A DNA stretch of 64,000 nucleotides from Lachnoanaerobaculum sp. OBRC5-5 (GTDB lineage: Bacteria > Bacillota > Clostridia > Lachnospirales > Lachnospiraceae): positions 470,013-534,012 of the forward strand of contig NZ_JH815185.1 of the NCBI RefSeq assembly GCF_000296385.1, written 5' to 3'. The notes beneath the pieces were generated by a model. The model worked only from the letters and a program-made list of their open reading frames with translations, did no database searches and was not told the origin of the DNA. This document shows positions 14,337 through 21,150 of the stretch, in pieces. How positions within the stretch are numbered: the first letter of the stretch is position 1; every line of letters starts with the position of its first letter. The position numbers were made by a program, and so were the translations under genes.

Positions 14337-15119
14337 ATGGATATAGTTCCTTTTTTAAGTATGGTATTTATGGTTATATCCTGTATAGTGGGATTTGCAA
14401 TTCCGGTTATACTTTTTGTTTATTTCAGGAAGAAAAAGCGTGCGGATATTGCTCCGTTTTTTATAGGTGTAATAGTATTTATTTTCTTTGTAACGGTTCT
14501 TGAAAGTTCCGTTCACAGAATTGTTTTCGGATTACCGTTCGGTGAGATTATAAAAAATAATGTAATACTTTACGCATTGTATGGTGGACTGATGGCTGCA
14601 ATATTTGAAGAAACGGGAAGACTGATTGCATTCGGGCTTATTCTGAGAAAGAATAATGATAAAAGCATAAATGCATGTATGTATGGTGCAGGTCATGGCG
14701 GAATTGAGGCCGCATCTGTTTTGGGATTGACTATGATAGGCAGTTTGGCTCTTTCAGTTTCAATAAACAGCGGACTTATTTCGACTATTCTGGACAATGT
14801 AGGAGGGAATGATCTTACACAGCTTAAAGATACGGTAAACACCTTGACTATGTCACCACCATATATATTTTTACTTGGTATAGTTGAGCGAATATTTGCT
14901 GTTATTTTACAGATATCACTGTCTGTTCTTGTATGGTCAAGTGTTAGAGGGAAAAGATATTTGTTTGCTTTAGCACTTTTAATTCATTTTGTGGCGGATA
15001 CTTTGATAGTTATATTAAACGGATTTCATGTACCTTTAATTTATGTAGAGATTATCTTCGGTGTGGTTTCAATAATAGTTGCGTTATTTTCACGAAAGAT
15101 ATATGTAGAAGAAAGTTAA
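14337..15119 (+). CDS. YhfC family intramembrane metalloprotease
   Basis: A 260-residue protein with 7-8 hydrophobic helices. EETGR (91-95) and GHGGIEA (119-125) match the YhfC family, distant relatives of the CPBP proteases with the EExxR and His-containing motifs inside the membrane. The substrate is unknown. It is the second gene of a two-gene operon and is followed at once by the promoter region of rtcB. Confidence 0.8.
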   Translation: MDIVPFLSMVFMVISCIVGFAIPVILFVYFRKKKRADIAPFFIGVIVFIFFVTVLESSVHRIVFGLPFGEIIKNNVILYALYGGLMAAIFEETGRLIAFGLILRKNNDKSINACMYGAGHGGIEAASVLGLTMIGSLALSVSINSGLISTILDNVGGNDLTQLKDTVNTLTMSPPYIFLLGIVERIFAVILQISLSVLVWSSVRGKRYLFALALLIHFVADTLIVILNGFHVPLIYVEIIFGVVSIIVALFSRKIYVEES

Positions 15120-15143
15120 GATGCGTTTTTTAAAATGTTATGA

Positions 15144-15149
15144 TATAAT
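15144..15149 (+). promoter_or_regulatory. Extended -10 promoter of the rtcB-prfH operon
   Basis: TGATATAAT (15141-15149) is an extended -10 with a perfect TATAAT; no good -35 is seen, as is common for extended -10 promoters. It lies about 44 bases before the leader ORF and about 183 before rtcB. Confidence 0.5.
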
Positions 15150-15192
15150 TTTAGAGTTACAATAAATAATAGAGATCGAAAGGAGAATAACT

Positions 15193-15270
15193 ATGAGGAA
15201 TACAATGAATAATACAATAAGTGGAACTATAAACTACAGAGGCATAGTTGTTCGCTGTCTATTATTCTAA
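15193..15270 (+). CDS. 25-residue leader peptide upstream of rtcB
   Basis: A short frame starts with MRNTMNNTISGTINYRG and ends VVRCLLF. It has an excellent ribosome site, AAAGGAG, 7-8 bases before ATG 15193. It is rich in Asn and Thr (10 of 25). It ends 61 bases before the rtcB start and just ahead of the hairpin at 15295-15326. The ribosome site is much stronger than that of rtcB. It may be a regulatory leader whose translation controls the hairpin; the peptide itself may not matter. No known homologue is recalled. Confidence 0.55.
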   Translation: MRNTMNNTISGTINYRGIVVRCLLF

Positions 15271-15294
15271 ACTTTTTATTAGAGAATGAACGAT

Positions 15295-15331
15295 AAAGCC
15301 TTTGAAACAGAAGAAAACAGAGGTTTTTATT
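15295..15331 (+). promoter_or_regulatory. Hairpin sequestering the rtcB ribosome site, attenuator-like
   Basis: AAAGCCTTTG (15295-15304) can pair with CAGAGGTTT (15318-15326), with a 13-base A-rich loop and two wobble pairs, and is followed by T-rich DNA. The pairing covers AGAGG, the only ribosome site for TTG 15332. It could stop transcription or block rtcB translation. Confidence 0.45.
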
Positions 15332-16471
15332 TTGATACAATTAAATGGAAAATACGCACAGGCGTATATTATGTGTGATGAAACTGTGGAAAAATCCATG
15401 GTAGAAGAAGTGGCAAAGTCTCAGGTGAGAATGATTTGTGATAATGAAGTATCACAGGGCGCAAAGATTAGGGTAATGCCTGATGTTCATCCGGGAAAGG
15501 TAGGACCTATAGGCCTTACAATGACTGTGGGAAAAAAGATTTTACCTTCTTTAGTGGGAATAGATATCGGTTGCGGCATGCTTTCGGTAAAACTCGGAAA
15601 AATAAGAAATGATTTTTTGAAGCTTGATACCGTAATCAGAGATAATGTTCCGGTCGGATTTGCTGTAAGAAAAGATATACATGCATATGCCGACAGAATT
15701 GATTTAAGTAATCTTAAATGTTTTTCACATATAAGATCTGAAAAAGCATTGCTTAGTCTTGGTACTTTAGGTGGTGGAAATCATTTTATTGAGCTGGATA
15801 CAGCAAAGAACGGTGAAGTTTTTCTTATAGTGCATACAGGTAGCAGACATCTTGGAAAAGAAGTGGCTGAGTACTATATGAAAGCGGGACAGGATGAACT
15901 GAAAGACAAAGGTATAAATGATATTCCTTTTGAAATGACCTACCTTAGCGGTAATTTGATGGAAGATTACTTACATGATTTAAAAATCGTGGAAGAGTAT
16001 GCGATATTAAACAGAAAAATAATTGCTGCTGAGATTATAAAAAAGATGAAGTGGAAGGCAATAGAAGAAATTTCATGTTCTCACAATTATGTGGATTTTT
16101 CAGGAAATCAGCCTATATTAAGAAAGGGTGCCATTTCAGCGAAGTTGGATGAAAAGGTAATAATTCCTATAAATATGAAGGAAGGTGTTTTACTTGGCAG
16201 GGGACTTGGAAACGAAGAATGGAATAATTCGGCACCGCATGGGAGCGGAAGAGTACTTTCAAGAGGAGAAGTAAATTCTTCGCATACGGTTTCCGAGTTC
16301 AAAAAAGAGATGAAGGGTATCTATACAAGCTGCATAAGTAAGGATACTTTGGACGAAGCACCTTTTGCATATAGAGGAATTGACTATATAAAAGAAGTTA
16401 TAAAAGATACCGTAGAGGTGGAAAATGTTCTTACTCCTATATATAACTATAAGGGAGGGGACAGAAAATGA
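15332..16471 (+). CDS. rtcB: RNA ligase RtcB (RtcB2-type)
   Basis: A 379-residue protein from TTG 15332, chosen for AGAGG upstream and a start at MIQLNGKYA; TTG 15302 is also in frame. RtcB joins RNA 2',3'-cyclic phosphate or 3'-phosphate ends to 5'-OH ends, using GTP and Mn2+. Metal ligands map to Asp78 and Cys81 (GIDIGCGM), His151 (GGGNHF), His168 and His251 (HNYVDF). The guanylated nucleophile is His303 (APHGSGR). The short length and tight coupling with prfH mark it as the RtcB2 form that repairs a cleaved 16S decoding centre. Confidence 0.92.
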   Translation: MIQLNGKYAQAYIMCDETVEKSMVEEVAKSQVRMICDNEVSQGAKIRVMPDVHPGKVGPIGLTMTVGKKILPSLVGIDIGCGMLSVKLGKIRNDFLKLDTVIRDNVPVGFAVRKDIHAYADRIDLSNLKCFSHIRSEKALLSLGTLGGGNHFIELDTAKNGEVFLIVHTGSRHLGKEVAEYYMKAGQDELKDKGINDIPFEMTYLSGNLMEDYLHDLKIVEEYAILNRKIIAAEIIKKMKWKAIEEISCSHNYVDFSGNQPILRKGAISAKLDEKVIIPINMKEGVLLGRGLGNEEWNNSAPHGSGRVLSRGEVNSSHTVSEFKKEMKGIYTSCISKDTLDEAPFAYRGIDYIKEVIKDTVEVENVLTPIYNYKGGDRK

Positions 16472-17067
16472 TTTTACAAATAAGTGCAGGTATGGGTCCG
16501 GTGGAATGTCAGAGGGCTGTATTCGGTATATGTAAAGCTTTAATGAGGGAATTTCAGTCTTTAGAGATTTTAAGTTATGTAGAGGGTGAGAGAAAAGAAA
16601 CTTTTTACTCAGTGATGCTCTCATCTGATGAAGATTTATCATATCTTGAAGGTACTATGCTTTGGATTTGTAAAAGTCGCTATAGGCCTGAGCATAAAAG
16701 AAAGAACTGGTTTGTGGATGTTAGTATTATTCCGGAAACAGTTAATGTAGATGATAACTTCTCTGAAGCGGATATTATAGTGGAGAAATTTCATGCAAGT
16801 GGACCGGGAGGTCAAAATGTAAACAAGGTGGAAACCGGAGTGAGGGTTATTCATATTCCTACAGGAATAAGGATAAGTTCAACAAGGGAAAGAAGTCAGC
16901 TTATGAATAAAAAGGATGCCATTAGAAAACTTGCCATTGTTTTAAAAAACAAGAATACTTCCCAAATTGAACAAAGTAAGAATAATGCATGGAGTAAACA
17001 TACGGATATAGTTAGAGGAAATCCGATAAGAGTATATGAGGGTGAAAGATTTAGGATAAGAAAATAA
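16468..17067 (+). CDS. prfH: Peptide chain release factor H
   Basis: A 199-residue class-I release-factor homologue. The GGQ motif (114-116, in ASGPGGQNVNK) is the peptidyl-tRNA hydrolysis loop; the codon-recognition domain of RF1/RF2 is reduced to about 90 unrelated N-terminal residues. It overlaps rtcB by 4 bases (ATGA), so the two are translationally coupled. In E. coli, PrfH frees ribosomes whose 16S rRNA was cut by colicin-E3-type nucleases so that RtcB2 can reseal the break. The same role is inferred here. Confidence 0.92.
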   Translation: MILQISAGMGPVECQRAVFGICKALMREFQSLEILSYVEGERKETFYSVMLSSDEDLSYLEGTMLWICKSRYRPEHKRKNWFVDVSIIPETVNVDDNFSEADIIVEKFHASGPGGQNVNKVETGVRVIHIPTGIRISSTRERSQLMNKKDAIRKLAIVLKNKNTSQIEQSKNNAWSKHTDIVRGNPIRVYEGERFRIRK

Positions 17068-17847: not shown

Positions 17848-18561
17848 ATGGAAAATGATTTTATATTAGAGAAAGACTGTATTATAAATGAGGAATCTCC
17901 ACAAAAGAATTTTCCTTGGATTTTAGGTATAATATATAATATCGTAGTTTACAGATGGGCATATGTTATTATATCTCAGTTAAACAGCACAGTAAAAAAA
18001 GAATTTGATATTTTACCTCATATAGTATATTTTATCTTACTTTTAATACTGCTTATATTGCAAATCATAAGCGTGAACAGAGCTATAAAAAGGGAGGATA
18101 TAAATTATTGCATTGACGGAGCGCTTTTTTACGGATACGCAATGTTTCCGGTTTCTCTGTTATGTGCACTATGTATTCTTGGTGTAGCTGTGGGCGAAAT
18201 ATTTATATTGATTGCATGTATGGTAGTACCGGCAATGATCTTTATCGTACCGTTTATTGCAATACCGTGTATTATATTTTTGATGATACTAATACTTTTG
18301 TACTATGTTTTATTGTCGCCCGGAATGTTGACGGCCGGTTATCTGGTTCGCTGTTATAAAGATGAATATGGTCTAAGTAACAACAAATATAACAGGCATA
18401 AGGTTTTTCGATTTATACCCGGAGTAAATTTAATTGATATTTTGTATATTTCAAATAAATATAGGGATAGAGGAAAATCACAAACCGTAATTATAGCAGT
18501 TTCCTTAATATTGATGATTCTAACAATCGTTGCGGCAATAGCAATCAGTAGAATATTATAG
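17848..18561 (+). CDS. Polytopic membrane protein, paralogue B1
   Basis: A 237-residue protein with a 25-residue polar N-terminus (MENDFILEKDCIINEES) and about five membrane helices. AAGGAG precedes the ATG. It is nearly identical in its first ~110 residues to the protein at 18666 and diverges more in the C-terminal half. The shared C-terminal RFIPGVNLIDILYISNKY links it to paralogue A. Function unknown. It is the first copy of an ~0.81-kb tandem duplication. Confidence 0.65.
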   Translation: MENDFILEKDCIINEESPQKNFPWILGIIYNIVVYRWAYVIISQLNSTVKKEFDILPHIVYFILLLILLILQIISVNRAIKREDINYCIDGALFYGYAMFPVSLLCALCILGVAVGEIFILIACMVVPAMIFIVPFIAIPCIIFLMILILLYYVLLSPGMLTAGYLVRCYKDEYGLSNNKYNRHKVFRFIPGVNLIDILYISNKYRDRGKSQTVIIAVSLILMILTIVAAIAISRIL

Positions 18562-18569
18562 GTATATAA

Positions 18570-18632
18570 ATGAAATCAAAGAAACTTTTTAGAATCATTG
18601 CTGCATGTATTATTTTATATATAATAGGCTAA
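18570..18632 (+). pseudogene. 20-codon chimeric ORF at a tandem-duplication junction
   Basis: The frame MKSKKLFRIIAACIILYIIG joins the first ~13 codons of the DUF1287-type gene (compare 19379) to the last codons of paralogue A (compare 17790-17814). The following spacer and ribosome site also match those after paralogue A. This is what a tandem duplication running from the end of A to the start of the DUF1287 gene would leave. It is probably not a functional gene. Confidence 0.8.
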
Positions 18633-18665
18633 GAAATAAAAATTCTTAAAAGGAGATATAGTGAT

Positions 18666-19370
18666 ATGGAAAATGATTTTATATTAGAAAAAGACTGTAT
18701 TATAAATGAGGAATCTTCAAAAAAGCATTTTCCTTGGATTTTGGGTATAATATATAATATAGTGGTTTACAGATGGGCATATGTTATTATATCTCAGTTG
18801 AACAGCACAGAAAAAAAGGAATTTGGTATTTTACCTCATATAGTATATTTTATCTTACTTTTAATACTGCTTATATTGCAAATCATAAGCGTGAATAGAG
18901 CCATAAAAAGGGAGGATATAAATTATTGCATCAATGGAGCGCTTTTTTATAGATACACTATGTTTCCGATTTCTCTGTTGTGTACAATATGTATTTTTGG
19001 TATAGCTATAGGTGAATTAGCTTTATTTATTGCATGTATGGTGGTACCGGCAACAATTGTTATGGCACCGTTCATTGGAATAATATTTATTATATTTTTG
19101 GTGATATTAATATTGTTGTATTTCGCTTTATTGTCACCGGGGATGTTAGCGGCATGTTACCTTATCGGTTATATTAAAGATAGACATAAAGTAAAACTGG
19201 CTAAATTTACTATGCATATATTACTTCAATTTATACCGGGAATAAATATAATTGATACATTGTATATTACTAATAAATATTGTAAGCGTGGAAAGATATT
19301 AGCTATAGGTACAGCAGTTGTAACATTAATAACAATTGTTGTAGCCATAATAATAATTAGAATATTATAG
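18666..19370 (+). CDS. Polytopic membrane protein, paralogue B2
   Basis: A 234-residue protein, second copy of the duplicated unit. The first half is almost identical to the protein at 17848; the C-terminal half has drifted (QFIPGINIIDTLYITNKYCKRGK). It has about five membrane helices and no known domain. It has the same AAGGAG site 10 bases before the ATG as copy B1. It ends 8 bases before the truncated DUF1287 gene. Uneven divergence along the length suggests either selection on the N-terminal half or gene conversion there. Confidence 0.65.
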   Translation: MENDFILEKDCIINEESSKKHFPWILGIIYNIVVYRWAYVIISQLNSTEKKEFGILPHIVYFILLLILLILQIISVNRAIKREDINYCINGALFYRYTMFPISLLCTICIFGIAIGELALFIACMVVPATIVMAPFIGIIFIIFLVILILLYFALLSPGMLAACYLIGYIKDRHKVKLAKFTMHILLQFIPGINIIDTLYITNKYCKRGKILAIGTAVVTLITIVVAIIIIRIL

Positions 19371-19378
19371 GTATATAA

Positions 19379-19969
19379 ATGAAATCAAATAAATTTTTTA
19401 GAATCATTGCTGCATGTATATTGCTTACAGTAATGATTTTACTGATATTTACAAGACTTTATCATAGAGGTACTTCTGTAAAGAGACCTAAGAATGCTTA
19501 TAAAAGACATATAGAGCAGTTTAAGAGCAGTGTTGATATGGATAAAGACGGAATTGATGATCAAAGCGATATATTAAACAGTGCTCTTTACTATATACAA
19601 ACAAAACCGAAGTATGAGAGCAGGTACTATATTGGCGGAACACCAAATGACGGTTATGGTGTTTGTACGGATGTTGTGGCTGCGGCACTTTTCGGTGCAG
19701 GATATGATTTACAAAGACTTGTGTCTGAGGGTATAAACGAGCATCCGGATAATTATGATATACAATCCCCTGATGAAAATATTGACTACCGTAGAGTAAG
19801 AAATCTGCAGGTGTATTTTAAAAATAATACAAATATTGTTGTTACATCTAAATGTATTCATGCGGGAGATTATAATCTGGAGTTTGAAATAGAAGATTAT
19901 GCAGCTTCAACAGAAAATATTATGCTTGTAATTACTGCAATGGGATATGCCGGGGTTTGGATGGAATGA
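19379..19969 (+). pseudogene. Truncated DUF1287 gene fused to a nitroreductase fragment
   Basis: The 196-codon frame has two origins. Codons 1-151 match the intact DUF1287 protein at 20470: N-terminal membrane anchor, DKDGIDDQSD loop, and GVCTDVV with Cys96. From about base 19833 it reads VVTSKCIHAGDYNLEFEIE ... AMGYAGVWME, which looks like the C-terminal half of a nitroreductase. The DUF1287 C-terminus with GDIVIF and His175 is missing, so the protein is expected to be inactive. Bases about 19610-19835 are nearly identical to 20700-20926, so the copy is recent. Confidence 0.75.
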
Positions 19970-20120
19970 TGAAGTTTGAGGGAAATATAGATAAGGTCAG
20001 AAAACTATTGAATATCAATTGTGAAGAAACACCCAGGACAATTATTCCATTCGGAAAGCCAAAGAGTATGGTAATACAGAAAGAAAAAAAGCATTTTCTG
20101 AAAGAGCTCATATGATTTAG
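19833..20120 (+). pseudogene. Decayed 3' part of a nitroreductase-family gene
   Basis: The first part is read in frame with the DUF1287 fragment up to the stop at 19969. The similarity then continues in a second frame (KVRKLLNI ... PRTIIPFGKP, 19984-20090) and a third (AFSERAHMI, stop at 20118-20120). At least two frameshifts are present, one at a run of A near 20083-20089. The 5' half is missing. Family assignment is by motif memory. Confidence 0.6.
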
Positions 20121-20143
20121 CGGTAGCTAGGCAGGTGTTTTAT

Positions 20144-20473
20144 ATGAGTGAAAATTTATTAAACTTTATAATTTGGTCAATATCGGGATGTTTAATAATC
20201 GCTATTGGAATCAGTTGTTTCTTTTCTAAAAAGCAGGCAGGATTTTGGGCAAATGTTAATTTGCCTCCGGTAAAGGATGTAAAGGGATATAATCATGCTA
20301 CGGGGAAGCTGTTTGTTTTATTCGGAGTGCTTTTGATTGCTTTGGGATTGCCTATATTATTTGATAAAAGTTCAGTATTTATATTTTTATCAATAATAGG
20401 AGTACTGATTTTAACAATAGCTATGATGGTGGTATATATTTTTTATATTGATGATAAATATAGGGAAAAATGA
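20144..20473 (+). CDS. Small membrane protein, DUF3784-like
   Basis: A 109-residue protein from ATG 20144, which has AGGTG 6 bases upstream; GTG 20135 is in frame but has none. It has three hydrophobic helices with a middle loop KKQAGFWANVNLPPVKDVKGYN, the pattern of DUF3784-like proteins, whose function is unknown. It overlaps the downstream DUF1287 gene by 4 bases (ATGA), so the two are probably translated together. Confidence 0.6.
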   Translation: MSENLLNFIIWSISGCLIIAIGISCFFSKKQAGFWANVNLPPVKDVKGYNHATGKLFVLFGVLLIALGLPILFDKSSVFIFLSIIGVLILTIAMMVVYIFYIDDKYREK

Positions 20474-21150
20474 AACAAAAAAGAATTTTTAAAATAATTG
20501 CTGCTGGTATAGTGCTTGCGGCAATAGCAGTACTTATATATAACAGATTTTCTTATAAAGAAACATCTACAAAGCGTCCAAGGTATGCTTATAAAAAGAA
20601 GATAGAGCAGATTAAGAGCGGAATCGACAAGGATGGCGATGGTGTTGATGACCAGAGCGACATATTGGAAAGTGCATTGGAATATATACAGACAAAACCT
20701 AAGTATGAGAGCAGGTACTATATTGGCGGAACACCAAATGACGGTTATGGTGTATGTACAGATGTTGTAGCTGCGGCACTTTTCGGCGCAGGATATGATT
20801 TACAAAGACTTGTGTCTGAGGATATAAACGAGCATCCGGATAATTATGATATACAATCCCCCGATGAAAATATTGACTATCGCAGAGTAAGAAATCTGCA
20901 GGTGTATTTTAAAAATAATACAAAAAGTCTTACTACAGATCTTTCTGAAATAGAAGAGTGGCAGGGCGGAGATATTGTTATTTTCAAAAAGCATATCGGA
21001 ATAGTATCCGACAGAAGAGATAAAAATGGAATTCCATATATTATTCATCACGGCAGTAAATATCAAAGAGCGTATGAACAAAAATATCTGAAAAGTAAGG
21101 CTGATGAAATAGTCGGTCACTACAGATGGGAATTGAAAAGAGAAAATTAA
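20470..21150 (+). CDS. DUF1287 domain protein, membrane-anchored
   Basis: A 226-residue protein with an uncleaved N-terminal membrane anchor (about 5-24) and an exported DUF1287 (YijF-type) domain. Conserved features are the acidic loop DKDGDGVDDQSD (53-64), GVCTDVV (Cys96), NIDYRRVRNL (134-143), GGDIVIF and HIGIVSD (His175). A Cys96-His175 pair would suit a papain/NlpC-like peptidase fold acting on the cell wall; that is an inference. The intact copy of the pair whose broken copy lies at 19379. It overlaps the small membrane gene upstream. Confidence 0.75.
   Translation: MKQKRIFKIIAAGIVLAAIAVLIYNRFSYKETSTKRPRYAYKKKIEQIKSGIDKDGDGVDDQSDILESALEYIQTKPKYESRYYIGGTPNDGYGVCTDVVAAALFGAGYDLQRLVSEDINEHPDNYDIQSPDENIDYRRVRNLQVYFKNNTKSLTTDLSEIEEWQGGDIVIFKKHIGIVSDRRDKNGIPYIIHHGSKYQRAYEQKYLKSKADEIVGHYRWELKREN

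Follow-up and report, generated by a model that had tools for sequence, protein, structure and literature searches.

How cells sense cut ribosomes, and how they time the production of RtcB and PrfH, is a question to which no answer was found in the literature searched. The window analyzed here (a stretch of 64,000 nt from Lachnoanaerobaculum sp. OBRC5-5, contig NZ_JH815185.1, positions 470,013 to 534,012, forward strand) carries an rtcB–prfH pair behind a leader that offers a testable one.

The rtcB and prfH Genes

The two genes are arranged as follows:

15332–16471, + strand: rtcB, RtcB RNA ligase family, TTG start
16468–17067, + strand: prfH, peptide chain release factor H, overlapping the rtcB stop, with GGQ in its translation

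The start of rtcB is very probably the TTG at 15332, 8 nt after GAGG, because the protein similarity to relatives begins there; the longer frame from TTG 15302 in the list of open reading frames was rejected on the same grounds. The prfH product scores 190.3 bits against NCBIfam TIGR03072 (cut-off, 166.65), and the rtcB product is above the cut-off of Pfam RtcB and below that of the narrower TIGR03073 (107.2 vs. 271.8). The gene order is that of the RtcB–PrfH ribosome-repair operon, and the repair activity of the window proteins is putative. An rtcB-like gene followed by prfH is also found in E. coli ATCC 25922 (PMC9223846), and translational coupling of rtcB and prfH was suggested in 2006 (PMC1586002). 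The available portions of the former paper contain neither “leader” nor “attenuat”, those of the latter do not contain “leader”, and those of a 2025 Rtc paper (PMC12606134) name prfH in the references only. No report of leader control of rtcB–prfH was found among the titles and abstract openings searched, which cover the literature in part.

A second, divergent rtcB, 45–51% identical to the leader-headed one, is located in the genome of the window (G000; C1:1620693–1621850), and the leader model gave no match around it. Further downstream in the window, two near-identical membrane-protein genes (17848–18561 and 18666–19370) are followed by related genes at 19379–19969 and 20470–21150, the latter with DUF1287; the gene set of 17848–21150 looks like a local duplication.

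Architecture of the Leader

Ahead of rtcB, the following parts were located:

15141–15149, + strand: extended -10 promoter element, TGATATAAT (TG at 15141–15142, TATAAT at 15144–15149)
15178–15185, + strand: leader Shine–Dalgarno, GAAAGGAG, eight contiguous bases complementary to the 16S tail of the genome
15193–15270, + strand: leader ORF of 25 codons, MRNTMNNTISGTINYRGIVVRCLLF, with ATG at 15193 and TAA at 15268–15270, its frame kept in relatives
15185–15195, + strand: R1, from the end of the leader Shine–Dalgarno through the start codon, forming 11 pairs with 15243–15253, with two-sided changes among relatives
15237–15253, + strand: R2, close to the end of the leader ORF, partner of either R1 or R3 plus T5
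15288–15294, + strand: R3, upper half of the antiterminator/anti-sequestor partner of R2
15295–15304, + strand: T5, 5′ arm of the OFF hairpin, AAAGCCUUUG
15318–15327, + strand: T3, 3′ arm of the OFF hairpin, CAGAGGUUUU, including the rtcB Shine–Dalgarno GAGG at 15320–15323

The extended -10 element, leader ORF, hairpin and T-rich DNA listed in the initial annotation are all present, and their coordinates were confirmed by sequence extraction; UUUUUAUUUUG lies directly 3′ of the OFF hairpin, and the RNA is U-rich up to 15334. The hairpin does cover the rtcB ribosome site as annotated, its 3′ side being one base longer (15327, not 15326). The annotation missed the switching helices, namely R1:R2 and the alternative pairings of R2 with R3 (15247–15253 with 15288–15294) and T5 (15237–15243 with 15298–15304). 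R2 is common to both of these helices, and T5 is common to R2:T5 and T5:T3; the folds, which overlap the ORF, are mutually exclusive.

The -35 region ahead of the leader is poor, and in a consensus promoter scan, promoter-like sites were not above shuffles. Among 32 leaders, the best-scoring extended -10 site reaches 9 or more in 31, a count uncalibrated against shuffles. Taken alone, the window leader folds with an unremarkable energy (z, −0.93), and the case is therefore carried by the comparison with relatives.

Distribution of the Leader

All six genus genomes searched carry this rtcB and the entire leader. Compared with the most distant of them (G004; RtcB 79% identical), the window is identical at 103 of 110 positions in the stretch that begins with leader codon 11 and ends at the start of rtcB, at 882 of 1137 in the rtcB coding sequence and at 456 of 604 at the start of prfH; the base changes in R1 and R2 within the genus preserve pairing.

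A search of 250 family genomes for RtcB (E-value ≤ 1 × 10−90) yielded 26 loci in 25 genomes. Upstream of several of these loci, a shared plan was read, consisting of a strong Shine–Dalgarno, an ORF some 25 codons long, a sequence close to the ORF end that can pair with the region around the ORF start, and a matching stretch before an intrinsic terminator, which is followed by the rtcB ribosome site. The leader ORF and stem, which the initial annotation had proposed to look for upstream of related operons, are thus conserved. Since both the ORF and the stem recur in relatives, together with two alternative helices, the arrangement is more than chance.

The first covariance model (R1–R2, built from 10 sequences) matched 26 of 397 family genomes; once the loci had been read, 23 of these matches look real. 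The second model, built from 25 sequences, matched 16 of 392 order genomes, with 12 looking real, and 4 of 391 class genomes, where only the match of the window itself looks real. By locus reading, the matches in G216, G284 and G360 (family search), G464, G591, G604 and again G360 (order search), and G872, G937 and G1064 (class search) were rejected as chance; that of G604 (L082) is a short ORF ahead of a different gene. A weak match to the leader model (18.6 bits) was seen in L161.

The R1/R2 pattern matched 36 stretches in genome contigs (84,980 species by the database description) and none in viral contigs. According to their titles, 30 of the 36 belong to Lachnospiraceae or to genera placed there, and six bear broader names (Clostridium, Clostridiaceae, Clostridiales, Eubacterium). 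The model-found and pattern-found sets, which share at least six contigs and are not fully independent, together give 60 distinct leader peptides. The plasmid relatives of RtcB are all below 60% identity. In the scans made, no convincing leader was found outside Lachnospiraceae, and its hosts appear to be Lachnospiraceae. The leader is an RNA family absent from Rfam: at the gathering threshold, no Rfam match was obtained in the window or in seven relative loci, and a relaxed scan of 15100–15400 gave two sub-threshold matches to unrelated families.

Conservation of the Alternative Helices

In 34 leaders aligned by fitting to a covariance model, two-sided changes were found in 6 of the 10 pairs of R1:R2 (2.9 in shuffled alignments) and in 27 cells (7.9 in shuffled), and sliding the R1:R2 partner destroys this signal. 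An earlier MAFFT alignment of 10 leaders had given 6 cells vs. 2.2 in shuffled alignments (1/500 shuffles), the number of pairs with two-sided changes not being above shuffles (3 vs. 1.8; 108/500).

Both helices were also subjected to a swap test of 32 leaders, which are not fully independent of each other. For R1:R2, the leaders' own halves pair at −16.1 kcal/mol vs. −13.3 kcal/mol for swapped halves (Wilcoxon p = 3.6 × 10−6), and for R2 and its downstream partner the values are −20.7 and −16.2 kcal/mol (p = 1 × 10−7). In this test, as in the codon, -10 and 16S-tail tests, 32 of the 34 leaders were used, L008 and L009 having been dropped as near-identical to L005. The pairing of R2 with the downstream part was also compared with dinucleotide shuffles. 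At p ≤ 0.05, it was stronger than these in 21 of the 34 model-found leaders (13 fail) and in 28 of 35 pattern-found leaders (7 fail), the latter having been picked by the R1/R2 pattern only, regardless of the downstream part; the remaining pattern-found leader (L151) was too short. The downstream partner of R2 is usually located just 5′ of a hairpin loop and T-run.

Terminator and Ribosome Site

Automatic terminator calling found hairpins of −7 kcal/mol or lower in 29 of 34 leaders vs. 28 of 170 shuffles; hairpins were nevertheless assigned by hand, because the automatic procedure mis-picked several loci. By this hand assignment, a separate terminator precedes the ribosome site in 26 of 32 leaders, the terminator and ribosome site are fused in four (L005 and L010 of the window genus, L077 and L060), and two (L067 and L076) apparently have ribosome-site hiding only. 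Therefore, the element is a transcription attenuator in most relatives, and the ribosome-site hairpin described initially holds for the window, where the 3′ arm of the terminator doubles as the rtcB Shine–Dalgarno throughout the genus. This form looks like a fused, derived version of the attenuator and may act on translation, termination or both, which suggests terminator/ribosome-site fusion as a route from a transcription attenuator to a ribosome-site switch. A terminator-like hairpin in L025, which has no leader before it, probably belongs to the previous gene.

Computed Effect of Ribosome Position

The effect of ribosome position was computed by constrained folding, with a ribosome-sized stretch held open along the leader. 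In the window, the predicted probability of T5:T3 is 0.93 without a ribosome, whereas R2:T5 reaches 0.80 with a ribosome on the AUG; R2:T5 is ahead on codons 1–6 only, and T5:T3 is back at 0.85 with a ribosome at the stop. Correspondingly, the rtcB GAGG is unpaired with a probability of 0.04 in the free leader, 0.58–0.75 with a ribosome on codons 1–6, and 0.10 or less on codons 7–23, while a ribosome on codon 24 half-opens it (0.27). Counting against the switch, the ON fold of the window is predicted to tie up the TTG start codon in a weak helix rich in A and U, with unpaired probabilities of 0.05–0.09 on codons 1–5 vs. 0.41 in the free leader.

Across 30 leaders (L067 and L076, which are without a terminator, were left out), R2:T5 wins with a ribosome on the AUG in 21 (no flip in nine), on codon 6 in 13, on codons 13–21 in none and near the stop in five. 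Two other footprint sizes gave similar counts, except for codon 6 (8 and 17). Of 295 chimeras in which the downstream half was foreign, 50 flip. The full switch, i.e., OFF when free, ON with a ribosome on the AUG and OFF on codon 16, was computed for 13 of the 30 leaders (14 and 13 with the other footprints). In eight of the 30, the ON fold is favored at equilibrium without any ribosome, a preference that co-transcriptional folding, with R1:R2 forming first, could remedy. The early-stall logic, as modeled, is thus weaker across the 30 leaders than in the window.

Proposed Mechanism

Based on the leader ORF, the mutually exclusive helices and the gene context, which come from comparison, it is very likely that the element is a ribosome-controlled attenuator of rtcB–prfH acting through translation of the leader. 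That it switches ON when a ribosome halts early in the leader is probable, judging from the computed ribosome positions that flip the fold. We assign a probability of roughly 0.68 to the two together; what we infer is the natural signal and the order in which the helices form as the RNA is transcribed.

With no ribosome on the leader, R1 would pair with R2, T5:T3 would form, and the rtcB ribosome site would be hidden, perhaps with termination of transcription (OFF). A healthy ribosome would translate through R2 and occupy it, so that T5:T3 would still form (OFF). A ribosome that initiates and halts within about the first six codons would cover R1 and leave R2 free to pair with R3 and T5, T3 would be released, and rtcB–prfH would be made (ON). 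The translated leader is very likely to control the hairpin, as the initial annotation had it, with the logic altered: full translation is predicted to leave the switch OFF, and the halt on the first six or so codons to turn it ON. If the element works as computed, it could be used to report damage at the decoding centre or a block in early elongation.

Translation of the leader ORF itself is indicated by its conserved frame. The ATG frame stays open beyond R2 in all 60 unique leaders, compared with 2 and 11 for the other two frames; a stop occurs 10–30 nt past R2 in 55 of the 60 (other frames, 0 and 2). The leader Shine–Dalgarno matches the 16S tail over 9–10 contiguous bases in 26 of 32 leaders (8 in the window), a length of 9 being reached by one of 58 long ORFs of the window. 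The switch does not seem to respond to the peptide as such: as judged by eye, R2 is read in another frame in four of 32 leaders (L036, L068, L070 and L072), and sensing of the peptide sequence was discarded for this reason.

Nature of the Signal and Alternative Explanations

According to the literature, colicin-E3-cleaved ribosomes retain about 75% of control initiation in vitro and show essentially no incorporation past about eight codons (PMC2615495), and RtcB2–PrfH protects E. coli ATCC 25922 against colicin E3 (PMC9223846). Since ribosomes cut at the decoding centre initiate and then halt early, and are the substrate of RtcB–PrfH, the damaged ribosome is the most likely natural signal, although we hold decoding-centre damage as the main signal only tentatively, at somewhat under even odds. 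The feedback by damaged ribosomes envisaged in the initial annotation is thus backed as to the parts of the leader and hairpin switch, the signal being the conjectural part. With similar reserve, it may be proposed that cleaved ribosomes load on the unusually strong decoy start, stop within a few codons and thereby induce their own mending enzymes. Such a loop might, equally tentatively, be self-limiting, with its substrate as its inducer, and might govern a small RNA-repair regulon of rtcB, prfH and the genes for a Cys-rich protein, AAA and VWA proteins.

The same switch could instead respond naturally to drugs and stresses that hold ribosomes at the start or early codons, as a general sensor of the toiL kind for which repair of cut rRNA is one use. 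The computed ON range includes the start codon, and tetracycline and retapamulin, which hold ribosomes at start codons, induce topAI via toiL (PMC12121999); by analogy with toiL, start-codon-stalling drugs should act on the leader like damaged ribosomes. This explanation is rather unlikely to account for the natural signal, as the genes known to follow the leader are rtcB, prfH and their associates rather than drug-resistance genes, and as work in E. coli connects RtcB2–PrfH with colicin E3 (PMC9223846).

The toiL uORF of topAI–yjhQ in E. coli resembles the leader in that start-codon stalls remodel the RNA around the ribosome site of the next gene and several kinds of stalled ribosome give a response; it differs in its toxin–antitoxin downstream genes and Rho-dependent termination (PMC12121999), whereas the Lachnospiraceae leader has rtcB–prfH, mostly intrinsic terminators in relatives, and an R2 complementary to the leader start region. 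The bmrB leader of bmrCD in Bacillus subtilis, likened here by description rather than sequence comparison, also has a translated ORF, three alternative stem-loops, transcriptional attenuation and an experimentally shown response to ribosome-targeting drugs, but it controls a drug transporter, not ribosome repair (PMC4191407). Similarly, the rli80 leader of hflXr in Listeria monocytogenes combines a leader ORF with a terminator/antiterminator and a downstream gene acting on stalled ribosomes; its 14-codon ORF carries an RLR drug-arrest motif (PMC6310831), whereas R-[LFIVM]-R, the signature of RLR-type drug arrest (ermC/hflXr kind), is absent from all 60 unique leader peptides.

Classical attenuation, in which shortage or cleavage of one tRNA (e.g., Asn or Thr) stalls the leader ribosome, was weighed on codon content. 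Before R2, Asn and Thr account for 91 and 69 of 477 codons (1.96 and 1.78 times the mononucleotide shuffle), and Asn occurs in codons 2–16 of 98% of the 60 unique leaders. Such a tRNA-specific sensor is disfavored, and we consider it improbable, because the sensitive codons 2–7 share no single amino acid across leaders (at best Asn, 62%, then Thr, 55%); furthermore, neither Asn nor Thr occurs in codons 2–8 of seven of the 60 leaders, and a run of three identical residues occurs in only three. In the attenuators of the trp, his and thr amino-acid operons, the ribosome position picks between two folds; the Lachnospiraceae leader is alike in this choice and unlike in having no regulatory codon run and in being computed ON for a halt at the ORF start. 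As to general composition, Asn and Thr together make up 160 of the 477 codons from codon 2 to R2, Pro is not used at all, and Lys and Glu are under-represented relative to the mononucleotide shuffle.

Equally improbable is that elongation is irrelevant and that R1 is opened by direct pairing of the leader Shine–Dalgarno, either with a 3′ fragment that cleaved 16S rRNA would set free or with a free 30S subunit. The mean strengths are similar (−16.2 kcal/mol for the 16S tail with R1 and −14.9 kcal/mol for R1:R2), and the Shine–Dalgarno is unusually long, but direct opening of R1 would leave unexplained why the ORF never closes before the end of R2 and stops shortly after it. Finally, the hairpin could be accidental and the short ORF spurious, leaving rtcB with a constitutive, weak ribosome site. 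This reading is consistent with the ordinary folding energy of the window leader and has a negligible chance of being true, as it is contradicted by the covariation, the swap tests, the frame conservation and the terminators in relatives.

Genes Downstream of the Leader

Among the 34 model-found leaders, 29 are ahead of rtcB, four are ahead of a gene for an AAA ATPase, with a DUF2201/VWA gene next in line, and one is ahead of an ASCH-domain gene. The 36 pattern-found leaders include 26 ahead of rtcB, three ahead of an ORF for a Cys-rich protein of about 60 aa and three ahead of an AAA gene, the sequence ending too soon in the other four. G280 and G626 have two leaders each, one of them on rtcB in both genomes. 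Forms of the operon include rtcB–prfH, rtcB–Cys-rich–AAA–VWA and AAA–VWA–rtcB–prfH. The leader is not universal, being directly ahead of rtcB in 9 of the 26 loci of the family RtcB search; among the eight of these with prfH in the fetched stretch, it is directly ahead of rtcB in six and at the operon head in one, and no leader was found in the remaining one. Through control by the same leader, the AAA/VWA genes and one ASCH gene are linked to RNA repair, as is the small Cys-rich protein.

The AAA_5/MoxR-like ATPase and the DUF2201/VWA protein are encoded in operons with rtcB and have the same leader even without rtcB (L052, L056, L062, L064; L135, L137, L139; L158), which suggests a joint function. 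The small Cys-rich ORF adjoins rtcB at many loci (e.g., L104:2812–2994 and L100:2055–2240 of the oriented stretches), is located upstream of rtcB in L025 and L041, and is the first gene after the leader in three of the 36 pattern-found loci; the one such ORF tested had no Pfam match. The leader copy ahead of the ASCH-domain gene (L076; G626:C1:3275610–3275690) has a weak match of R2 to the downstream part and is poor in the swap test; the second leader of that genome is on rtcB. In L060 and L061, the leader is kept before a truncated rtcB, with an AAA gene next in L061.
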